This document shows, piece by piece, positions 15,787 to 39,320 of a stretch of 58,662 nt of DNA. Source of the stretch: Candidatus Kuenenia hertensis (GTDB taxonomy: Bacteria > Planctomycetota > Brocadiia > Brocadiales > Brocadiaceae); the NCBI GenBank assembly GCA_021646465.1, contig SOET01000028.1:1-58662 (forward strand), written 5' to 3'. Each line of letters begins with the position of its first letter. Position 1 is the stretch's first letter. The translations under genes and the position numbers were made by a program. Below the pieces are notes generated by a model. The model did no database searches and had not been told where the DNA came from. It saw only the letters and a list, made by a program, of their open reading frames with translations.

Positions 15787-15936
15787 AACTATTCGGCGTA
15801 ATTTATAACACACCCCTAAATCCCCTCTTAATAGAGAGGACTTACACGTTTTTATGGAACGTCAAGGTAACCCCCTCTAAAAAGAGGGGTGGCAGCATAG
15901 CTGACGGGGTGTGTATTACATGCTGAATAGATACAA
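15787..15936 (+). repeat. MITE-like repeat, copy 1
   Basis: About 150 bp with imperfect terminal inverted repeats (CTATTCGGCGTAA... at the left, reverse complement of ...GCTGAATAGATACAAT at the right) and internal complementary blocks such as CCCCTCTTAATAGAG and CCCTCTAAAAAGAGGGG. A second copy lies inverted at 36495-36622. It carries no gene. The surrounding 15661-16065 gap otherwise holds only the ctctgcggtgaac-type repeat near 15999-16020. Confidence 0.65.
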
Positions 15937-16065
15937 TAAAGTTAAAGGGGAAATTTGTGTAATTTTCCGATTTTTCCCCATTACAATCCTCTGCGTTCTC
16001 AGCGCCCTCTGCGGTGAACGATAATAACATCTCTGCTAATTTATTAACAATGGAGGACTTTTGTT

Positions 16066-34823: not shown

Positions 34824-35927
34824 TTATGTTTCAGAGCAGCAGGCAGTTTTAAGGTTCAATTCTTTATTTACTCTTCCTTCTTTTTTAACCATTAGCTGGT
34901 TAAACACCTTACTTTTCTCTGTTAATATCTCATTCCAGGGAATCAGAGGTGACGGGTAATTATGTATAGCATCATTGTAAACATAACGACATAACTGATC
35001 GAAAAACGAATATTTCTCATTAAGATAGATTAGTAAATTATTCTTAAGGGTATCTTTATAGAGATTTCCTATAGAAAATTGCCTATCAATGTCAACAAGT
35101 TCTGGCAGTATAGTACCATCTTCTCTTACAACAATTTTTTTTAATTCCTTCTCCACTCCCCGATGACAGTCCGCACCATTGCATACAAATGCAGCACATG
35201 GGTGTGCAACCATATAGTCCCGGCTTTGATATGTCATCTTAATTTGTAAACCCCTGGAAGCATAAAATGCTGCGAGATCACTCAATTGAATAAAAAGGTC
35301 GTGAAGACACTCCGCAGAAAGCCGCTTATTTCTAATATCATTTCCCCTGCCAATGCCTTCCAGAGGCTGGAATTGCATAACGCTGGCTCCCATTTTGTTC
35401 GCCCATTCTGCACACCATTCAACATACCGGATGCTATCAGCACATACAGTTGTTACTATTCTTACGTTAACACCACGGTCAACAAGGCGGGCAATACCAG
35501 CCTCTGCCTTAGAAAAGCAACTTTTTTTCCCGCGAAACATGTCGTGATAATCGGATGGACCATCAATGCTTGTTACGACAGAGGCATTTATATCGGCAAG
35601 GAGGTCTGCTGCCCTATCGTCTATACACGTTCCGTTCGTAGACAAAACTACATTAAATTTTCTCCCTTTAGCAGCACATAAAACCTCTTGAATATATGGA
35701 TAGAGAAATGGTTCACCACCACTAAACTGTAATGAGTTAATTCCTAAATCATCAGCTTCGTCCATTGTTCGTTTAACTAAATCAAGAGGTAGTACACATT
35801 TGCCATGGGAAGAAGCATCAAGATAACAGTGTTTACAATGCAAATTGCACTTGTCAAGCAGATGGATTAATAGATTTCCCGTTCGGGTTAAAAACTCTGA
35901 AAGATTATCGGGCAGGGGTTTTTCCAT
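34824..35927 (-). CDS. radical SAM protein with SPASM-like C-terminus
   Basis: A 367-residue radical SAM enzyme. CNLHCKHCY near residue 30 binds the 4Fe-4S cluster, and FSGGEPFLYP is the AdoMet-binding GGE motif. The C-terminal region has a further cysteine group (HPCAAFVCNGADC plus later Cys) like SPASM/twitch domains that act on peptides or proteins. AGGAG precedes the ATG. Neighbours include several tiny ORFs, so peptide modification is possible, but no core peptide is evident. It could instead be a maturase for a protein in this cluster. Confidence 0.85.
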   Translation of the reverse strand: MEKPLPDNLSEFLTRTGNLLIHLLDKCNLHCKHCYLDASSHGKCVLPLDLVKRTMDEADDLGINSLQFSGGEPFLYPYIQEVLCAAKGRKFNVVLSTNGTCIDDRAADLLADINASVVTSIDGPSDYHDMFRGKKSCFSKAEAGIARLVDRGVNVRIVTTVCADSIRYVEWCAEWANKMGASVMQFQPLEGIGRGNDIRNKRLSAECLHDLFIQLSDLAAFYASRGLQIKMTYQSRDYMVAHPCAAFVCNGADCHRGVEKELKKIVVREDGTILPELVDIDRQFSIGNLYKDTLKNNLLIYLNEKYSFFDQLCRYVYNDAIHNYPSPLIPWNEILTEKSKVFNQLMVKKEGRVNKELNLKTACCSET

Positions 35928-36112: not shown

Positions 36113-36433
36113 TTAAATACTACGTTCCACTTTCAGGGACTGCTTGTTCAATGCTTGTTCAAGAACTTGTATTCTGGTTGTTAACGTTTCTATATGTTTG
36201 ATATTCCACCAGTGTGGTGGCCGTGGTCCTGTACCATATTCATCATCCTCAAAGAATAAGGATGTTGAAACAGAGGATGCCACTTCCGTTACCAATTCCG
36301 TCTTCAGATCCCGTCTAAAAATCTCGGTTGCCTTTACAACAAATTCCTCAAGCCTGCCTGAATTTGCAATCTTTCTGAGCTGTTCCGGATTAATCTTAAG
36401 GGTTATTGTTCCTATCTCATCTCGTCTTTCCAT
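36113..36433 (-). CDS. small hypothetical protein
   Basis: A 106-residue protein with AAAGGAGG before its ATG. The N-terminal half (TITLKINPEQLRKIANSGRL) is helical, and the tail has YGTGPRPPHWWNIKH followed by a short coiled coil. It lies 185 bp upstream of the radical SAM gene on the same strand. I do not recognise the family; a substrate or partner of the radical SAM protein is only a possibility. Confidence 0.55.
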   Translation of the reverse strand: MERRDEIGTITLKINPEQLRKIANSGRLEEFVVKATEIFRRDLKTELVTEVASSVSTSLFFEDDEYGTGPRPPHWWNIKHIETLTTRIQVLEQALNKQSLKVERSI

Positions 36434-36494
36434 TTTAATCCTCCTTTATTTGAAAAAGTCTCGCAAAACCTTCCGTAAAAAGTAATTATTAAAA

Positions 36495-36622
36495 ATTGTA
36501 TCTATTCAGCGTGTGGATACACACCCCTTCTGCTACGCTGCCACCCCTCTTGTTAAAGGGGATATCAGGTGTCTCCTCTATCATGAGGGATTTATGGATG
36601 TGTAATAAATTACGCAGAACAG
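36495..36622 (-). repeat. MITE-like repeat, copy 2 (inverted)
   Basis: The reverse complement of this stretch matches 15787-15936 over its whole length: the ends (GCGTAATTTATTACACA... and ...GCTGAATAGATACAAT) and the internal AGAGGGGTGGCAGC block. It sits between two small genes of the minus-strand cluster. Confidence 0.65.
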
Positions 36623-36662
36623 ATGCAGAAAATTAAAGTTACATGTGCTTAATGTAATACAG

Positions 36663-36761
36663 TTAACCTGTACTCTTGCCAATCACAATCCCAATAACAA
36701 TAACATTAGGTAAAAGCATAAGTTGTTCTTCATGCTTCATCCTGAAGGCCTCAATGTTCAT
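36663..36761 (-). CDS. 32-residue ORF with perfect Shine-Dalgarno
   Basis: AGAAAGGAGGTG ends about 7 bases before ATG 36761. The peptide starts MNIEAFRMKHEEQLMLL and continues PNVIVIGIVIGKSTG. The start resembles the N-terminus of small proteins that read xHEExLxxxPNVxGVGIG, so this may be a truncated member, or a real short peptide. It directly follows another tiny ORF whose stop lies within its ribosome site. Confidence 0.45.
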   Translation of the reverse strand: MNIEAFRMKHEEQLMLLPNVIVIGIVIGKSTG

Positions 36762-36767
36762 ATATTC

Positions 36768-36908
36768 TCACCTCCTTTCTGCTAACACTTGAGTTTCTTG
36801 AAACGTAAAGGCGAAACATTTACCGGTTTTAGGATTGATTACATTTATCCAAATTTCTGGCAAATGCTTCACCCCTCCACTGCGTGGCACATCGTTGTTG
36901 AAGGTCAA
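36768..36908 (-). CDS. 46-residue ORF, TTG start
   Basis: GAGGAG lies 5 bases before TTG 36908. The product includes HLPEIWINVINPKTGKC and FAFTFQETQVLAERR. Its TGA is embedded in the ribosome site of the next ORF (AGGAGGTGA), which suggests translational coupling. The family is not recognised. An unusual start codon and short length keep confidence moderate. Confidence 0.4.
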   Translation of the reverse strand: MTFNNDVPRSGGVKHLPEIWINVINPKTGKCFAFTFQETQVLAERR

Positions 36909-37026
36909 TGCCACTCCTCTGGTAAAGTTTTTACATAATTACCTTGAGAAAGTTATATTTTTCAAAAGTGAATAATATTCCTCACAAAAATCCAAAATAC
37001 ATACACAGAAAAGGGTACATTCTTTT

Positions 37027-37296
37027 TTAATTTTTTTCTATTTGTCCGTACATTTCTTCATGCTTTTTCACTGAACTTTGAAGTAATTTTAATAAAATAC
37101 TTACATAATACGGGTTACAAATAATTCTTGTATGATAATTTTCTTTTCCGTTTTCGTCATACGATTGACCAAAATCTAGTACAAATTCGAATTCATTCTG
37201 CCCAATCTGGAAACAATTTGCATATTGACCCTCTGAAGGTTTGTTCTTCTTACAATTAACGTTTGTATTGTCAAAATTTTTCATAAAAACAATCAA
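37027..37296 (-). CDS. DUF3467 protein
   Basis: An 89-residue protein with the DUF3467 pattern: YANCFQIGQNEFEFVLDFGQ, then YHTRIICNPYYVSILLKLLQ. The function of the family is unknown. The start may be TTG 37296, five bases after AAGGAA, or ATG 37284. It lies downstream of the caspase-like gene and upstream of the tiny ORFs on the same strand. Confidence 0.75.
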   Translation of the reverse strand: MIVFMKNFDNTNVNCKKNKPSEGQYANCFQIGQNEFEFVLDFGQSYDENGKENYHTRIICNPYYVSILLKLLQSSVKKHEEMYGQIEKN

Positions 37297-38365: not shown

Positions 38366-39181
38366 TTACTCCGCAAGTACCCTCCACTTATACCTTTGAT
38401 TTTGTGAACCGGAAAGTTGTGGTGTTTGAGGGTATCTGACATTTGGTAATGTTTTGCGAATCTCCTTGTGCCAATCTTTGTATGTAGCCGTACCGGGAAG
38501 TGCCTTAAGGGCCTGTAATGCCACATAGGTAAAAGCCCCATTTGGCCGTTCATTAAACCATGCATCGTAGCTATATTCCTCATCCTTGCATCCGGAAAGC
38601 AATACCGCAGCAGCCCGGATCTTTCCTCTGGCAGTAATATTCTCAACCCTTCGCGCCCTCTTCAAGAGAGTTTCATTATTTTTAATATAAAATTCAGGCG
38701 CCAGAAATCTGATCTTTGGGAATTACCATGTATCGTTTTCTGTTCCGGGAATCATGGTACTCGCTCTCGATACTGTGCCAGAATGACAGGAATCGCTGAT
38801 GAGAATGACCCTGGCGCCGCTTTTTCTTTCACTGAATATCTCATACAACTCGTCATCGGCCAGTACATTCCCCTGCGAAATGTCGTACGGGCATAGGGCC
38901 TCATCCCGGCCATCCACTTCATCATCATCCTCATCCGGTACCCAGGTTCCGTGACCTGAGTAAGTAATTACAGATATGTCATCTCTGCCCGTGTCACCCA
39001 CAATTTTTGAAATCGCCTCTATCATATTGCTTTTGGATGCTGCTCCGTCAATAAGTGAAGTCACAGCAAACCCTCGTCCATTCAAGGCCTCTCTCCAGTC
39101 ATTCGCATCATTAACACATCCGGAAAGATCATTACCGGTGCCAGGATAATCATTAATTCCAATGGTAAGTGCCCTCTTCAT
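38366..39181 (-). pseudogene. caspase-like peptidase (C14) with one in-frame stop
   Basis: ATG 39181 follows AGAAAGGAG. The p20-like part reads ALTIGINDYPGTGNDLSGCVNDA, then the catalytic His in YSGHGTW and Cys in ISDSCHSG. At 38723-38725 a TAA interrupts the frame, yet the same frame continues for 119 codons with the expected small-subunit region (AAVLLSGCKDEEYSYDAWFN, GAFTYVALQALK). A single nonsense codon is the only lesion. It may be a recent pseudogene, a sequencing error, or read-through. It sits between a sigma-54 regulator gene and the DUF3467 gene. Confidence 0.75.
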
Positions 39182-39320
39182 TGTCTTTCTCCTTTCTATA
39201 AAAAATGAGATATCAGTCTCCAAATTCCTGTTATGCGTGCCATAGAATTTAAATAGAATTTAAAATGACTGCTTTCATGTCCGAATAAAAGCATATCTAT
39301 GTTAAGATTTTTGATTCTGT

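Follow-up and report, generated by a model that had tools for sequence, protein, structure and literature searches.

Two closely spaced mini-ORFs in Candidatus Kuenenia hertensis very probably lie in genome debris: a worn IS66-type MITE followed by the stump of a NAL1_N-like gene

The window, that is, the whole stretch of 58,662 nucleotides of Candidatus Kuenenia hertensis DNA that was analysed, contains two closely spaced short frames on the minus strand, ORF1 and ORF2, each preceded by a string resembling a ribosome site (Table 1). ORF1 starts with TTG after GAGGAG (36919-36914), and the list of open reading frames offers as an alternative a 48-residue version with an overlapping GTG start at 36914. 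ORF2 starts with ATG after AGAAAGGAGGTG, the last two bases of which are overlapped by the TGA stop of ORF1. Both mini-ORFs and both strings are present, with this overlap, as a first-pass annotation of the sequence had described them. Searches of Pfam and NCBIfam returned no family for either frame.

Table 1. Coordinates of the features discussed in the text (positions in the window).
Feature	Position	Strand	Basis or remark
ORF1	36768-36908	-	TTG 36908-36906, 46 codons, TGA stop 36770-36768; most likely not a gene
ORF2	36663-36761	-	ATG at 36761, 32 codons, stop ends at 36663; open remnant of a decayed gene
Ribosome site AGAAAGGAGGTG	36769-36780	-	Inherited from the intact gene
Decayed IS66-type MITE copy	36782-36923 (envelope); 36783-36903 (aligned)	-	nhmmer profile match
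5' stump of NAL1_N-like small-protein gene	36638-36781	-	From ribosome-site start to end of nucleotide similarity with intact copies
Second interspersed repeat, partly palindromic	about 36490-36624	-	blastn borders from three copies, 81-83% identity
Further copy of the second repeat	15872-15937		
Radical SAM protein gene	34824-35927	-	Best NCBIfam matches far below cut-off
106-aa frame	36113-36433	-	Before the radical SAM gene; clear ribosome site; no Pfam or NCBIfam family
DUF3467 small protein gene	37027-37296	-	TTG start
Caspase-like (Peptidase_C14) gene	38366-39223	-	One in-frame stop at about 38723

To compare the two start signals with chance, we took all 616 frames in the window that are 25-60 codons long, together with 30 Markov shuffles, and counted motifs 4-12 bases before the starts. 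The string AAAGGAGG occurs once, before ORF2, vs. a shuffle mean of 0.13 (maximum 1); AGGAGG occurs 2 times vs. 1.4 in the shuffles, GGAGG 10 times vs. 5.2, and GAGGAG once vs. a shuffle mean of 1.03 (maximum 3). The results indicate that ORF1 has a ribosome site at chance level, and ORF2 one that is somewhat above chance level, the latter because, as set out below, it is inherited from an intact gene.

Of 98 genomes searched at the protein level with ORF1, 14 gave matches, the genome of the window among them, and the first of these matches (E 1e-7) made a conserved protein a candidate. The full set of 63 non-self matches at E <= 0.1, the weakest of which may be chance, has other properties: a single genome accounts for 30, both strands match at three places, and in-frame stops interrupt 52, with 11 free of stops. 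Given the stops, the both-strand matches and the copy number, we rejected ORF1 as a conserved protein. We fetched 29 non-self loci from this search and aligned 18 of them, picked mainly by E-value and without a fixed cut. A repeat core is common to all 18 aligned places, and 16 of the 18 represent an element with a length of 135-153 bp, which leaves no room for a transposase. The inverted ends of this element are like GTAACA(C/A)TTTAGTTTTTTGAAAAA, an inner palindrome surrounds GGGGCGAAGCATTTGCC, and 9 of the 16 copies have perfect 8-bp target duplications. At E <= 0.001, with both strands and end-only pieces counted and 40 candidates scored per genome, matches to this MITE number at least 76 in genome G001, at least 116 in G002 and at least 34 in G000.

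The ends of the MITE point to its parent. Of the 17 IS66 transposase loci in three genomes of this genus, 5 carry the MITE end sequence with 1 mismatch in 24. Four IS66 elements are visible from end to end; they measure 2368-2412 bp, and all four have perfect 8-bp duplications. A paper on Frankia (PMC11946415) describes IS66 elements with 20-30-bp ends starting GTAAGCG and reports 8-bp duplications; the elements here begin GTAACAC, and what they have in common with those of the Frankia paper is GTAA and the 8-bp duplication. The family is like IS66-family MITEs in its ends, which nearly match those of full IS66 elements of the genus, in its 8-bp duplications, in its many copies and in having no room for a transposase, and its parent is likely an IS66-family insertion sequence. 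Literature searches found no paper on IS66-linked MITEs in anammox bacteria or on MITEs in Kuenenia, and for MITEs together with small proteins the sole return was a plant review.

To place ORF1 relative to this element, we used a profile of 16 of the 18 aligned places, all of them relatives' copies with the window excluded (L004 and L031 were left out, since their ends could not be set). The profile matches the window with 69.9 bits (E 7.3e-21), vs. at most 11.8 bits when the window was Markov-shuffled 20 times, and the match spans profile positions 28-151 of 152. Window positions 36783-36884 are, in addition, 77% identical to one individual MITE copy (E 1.3e-14). The MITE envelope holds 127 of the 138 sense bases of ORF1, the last codons and the stop being flank, and GAGGAG and the first ORF1 codons (36904-36919) lie outside the aligned part of the profile. 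The inner palindrome and the right terminal repeat are recognisable in the window copy. Unlike IS66-family MITEs, the window copy is decayed: its left terminal repeat is not recognisable and no target duplication is seen around it, and for these two reasons we call the copy old. An inverted-repeat search of 36400-37000 (minimum length 14, seed 9) found none, the arms probably being too diverged. When the window copy was the query of a DNA search of its own genome, no match other than the copy itself turned up; further copies in that genome were found only with a relative's copy as the query, and were mostly partial among the matches listed. We conclude that ORF1 is most likely not a gene, but a frame that would have stayed open for 46 codons by chance within a repeat.

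ORF2 has a different origin. Two strong matches to ORF2 were found in the 98 genomes: an intact protein in G005, 73% identical over ORF2 residues 1-28 (E 1.4e-6), and an intact protein in G012 (69% identity, E 2.6e-6). Both are full-length frames, and neither is a 32-codon form. With the intact protein as the query, the match in the window extends over 36606-36755 (E 3.9e-5) and has three TAA codons inside; its last part overlaps the second repeat, and we discarded the similarity beyond about 36624, which falls in that repeat. At the nucleotide level, similarity between the stump and the intact genes starts at the ribosome site and stops near 36638; local alignment gives scores of 116 with L032 (best of 200 shuffles, 75) and 112 with L033 (best of 200 shuffles, 77). 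The ribosome site, which reads GAAAGGAGGTGAG in L032 and CAGAAAGGAGGT in L033, is common to the intact genes and ORF2; that is, ORF2 has inherited the site and has lost the remainder of the gene. In the alignment, the first ~20 residues are well conserved, and the TGVGIG core is altered in ORF2, with two extra residues. Differences between ORF2 and L032 in the first 20 codons, read by eye, are distributed 2, 3 and 6 on the codon positions, and so these codons were selected until fairly recently, or are still selected. A ~75-residue open frame with a GVGIG core, as in the intact genes, is absent from ORF2. ORF2 is a relic of a NAL1_N-like gene, not a member gene. The first-pass annotation had noted that ORF2 resembles the start of a small GVGIG-type protein and had suggested that it might be truncated; both points are borne out by the G005 and G012 matches, by the inherited ribosome site and by the three TAA codons met on reading on.

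The intact gene has a constant partner. A pattern-based scan gave 11 loci of the intact gene (L073-L083), all of them open, from Candidatus Loosdrechtia, six Nostocales, two Acidobacteria, one deltaproteobacterium and one methylomirabilote. The Loosdrechtia locus, L073, is the same place as L032; by its match with G005, Loosdrechtia belongs to the same family, and the group is the anammox lineage. With L033 added, 12 loci were available, and in 12 of the 12 the small-gene match is followed on its own strand, after 24-272 bases, by a relative of a trypsin-like protease (at L074 and L079 the similarity to the protease is split in two, and the protease may be broken there). The label 'trypsin-like' denotes a sub-threshold match to the Trypsin_2 profile: the protease neighbour in L032 scores 24.7 bits, below the cut-off of 27.6. 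The same neighbour scores 29.9 bits, over the cut-off, with NAL1_N (NARROW LEAF 1 N-terminal domain; PF25608), and the intact small protein of L032 scores 25.5 bits with NAL1_N, below the cut-off of 27. The 12 loci hold, in distant phyla, a two-gene unit of a ~75-aa NAL1_N-like protein followed by a protease with its own NAL1_N-like N-terminal part. The small protein of the unit is 67-100% identical to the query across these distant phyla, which suggests horizontal transfer of the unit. No paper on bacterial trypsin-like homologs of NARROW LEAF 1 was found in a literature search. No trypsin-like protease was found in the window, in its own genome (G000), or in G001 and G002; the same search finds the protease in G005 and G012. 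ORF2 is, in sum, like the NAL1_N small protein in its first ~28 residues and its ribosome site, and unlike the small protein and its protease unit in being cut to 32 codons, with an altered core, without the protease and without a Pfam match.

The 12 loci also bear on what lies upstream. An ORF1 relative precedes the intact small gene in 0 of the 12. Frames of at least 25 codons that end within 40 bases of the small-gene start are present at 4 of the 12 loci, and none of them matches ORF1; the single MITE among the 12 loci lies after the protease (L033, 2863-3015). We therefore rejected a conserved upstream partner of ORF2 on the basis of these 12 loci.

Downstream, the stump is followed by a second interspersed repeat. 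Its borders are good to a few bases, with one copy aligning up to 36633, and it has at least 42 matches in its own genome at E <= 0.01, with the self-match and two short pieces counted and 40 of 85 candidates scored. The interval from the MITE to the second repeat is taken up by the stump, to within about 15 bases.

The best explanation, which we hold with high confidence, is that the stretch is genome debris: a worn MITE, the stump of a NAL1_N-like gene and a second repeat, in a row on the minus strand. According to this explanation, a worn IS66-derived MITE is open by chance in one frame for 46 codons; next after the MITE come the ribosome site, the start codon and some 30 initial codons of a decayed NAL1_N-like gene; and the second interspersed repeat lies near the end of the gene similarity. 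That the ORF1 stop coincides with part of the ORF2 ribosome site has, on this view, no other cause than the end of the MITE one base ahead of that site. The MITE presumably inserted upstream of a once intact gene, and the second repeat, or a deletion associated with it, may have removed the 3' part of the gene. The ORF2 start may still be used by ribosomes, yielding a peptide without function. The first-pass annotation had held that such careful signals argue that short products are really made, and had proposed a search for conserved mini-ORFs next to caspase or radical SAM genes; at the 12 loci of the intact gene, the neighbour found in common is the trypsin-like protease. The argument from the signals is unsupported, since ORF1 belongs to a mobile repeat with stops in most of its matches and the conserved form of ORF2 is the full-length gene of ~75 residues; conservation of the short frames in relatives was likewise not found, ORF1 being interrupted as stated and ORF2 having no 32-codon form among its strong matches in the 98 genomes.

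Three other readings give the stretch a function. ORF2 could be a functional 32-residue peptide, that is, a shortened NAL1_N protein retained in its own right, as would fit its intact ribosome site and ATG, its well-conserved first ~20 residues and the by-eye excess of third-position differences in its first 20 codons. We consider this very unlikely: the TGVGIG core is altered and, as aligned, carries two additional residues, all 12 of the intact relatives that were examined are full length and have the protease after them, the protease was not found in its own genome, and both strong matches in the 98 genomes are full-length forms. A more elaborate version, in which the 32-codon stump is translated from the inherited site, the peptide has its own function (for example, as a decoy after protease loss) and the MITE supplies transcription, seems to us slighter still. 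The overlap of the ORF1 stop with the ORF2 ribosome site could be taken to mean that the two are genuine small genes with coupled translation, but ORF1 is a repeat of which most other copies have stops, and 0 of 12 loci have an ORF1 relative before the intact ORF2 relative; the likelihood of such a pair is close to nil.

As a third reading, the MITE could act as a putative promoter or form an RNA hairpin, and in this way drive or control transcription of the 106-aa frame and of the radical SAM gene, both of which lie downstream of it on the same strand. The stump and the second repeat stand in between, however, and the MITE copy is decayed, and we give this reading as little credence as that of a functional ORF2 peptide.

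On the preferred explanation, the case is most likely one of ordinary debris, and it carries a caution: a tiny frame is not necessarily a small gene even when a perfect ribosome site precedes it, because start signals can survive in the stump of a gene and one frame of a palindromic MITE can happen to remain open. Surveys of small ORFs in this bacterial group should mask the IS66-linked MITE family and the family of the second repeat.

Among the neighbouring genes, the radical SAM gene and the 106-aa frame before it are an uncharacterised pair. The two halves of the caspase-like gene match successive parts of the Peptidase_C14 profile, and, because the in-frame stop splits these successive matches, the gene looks like a pseudogene too.
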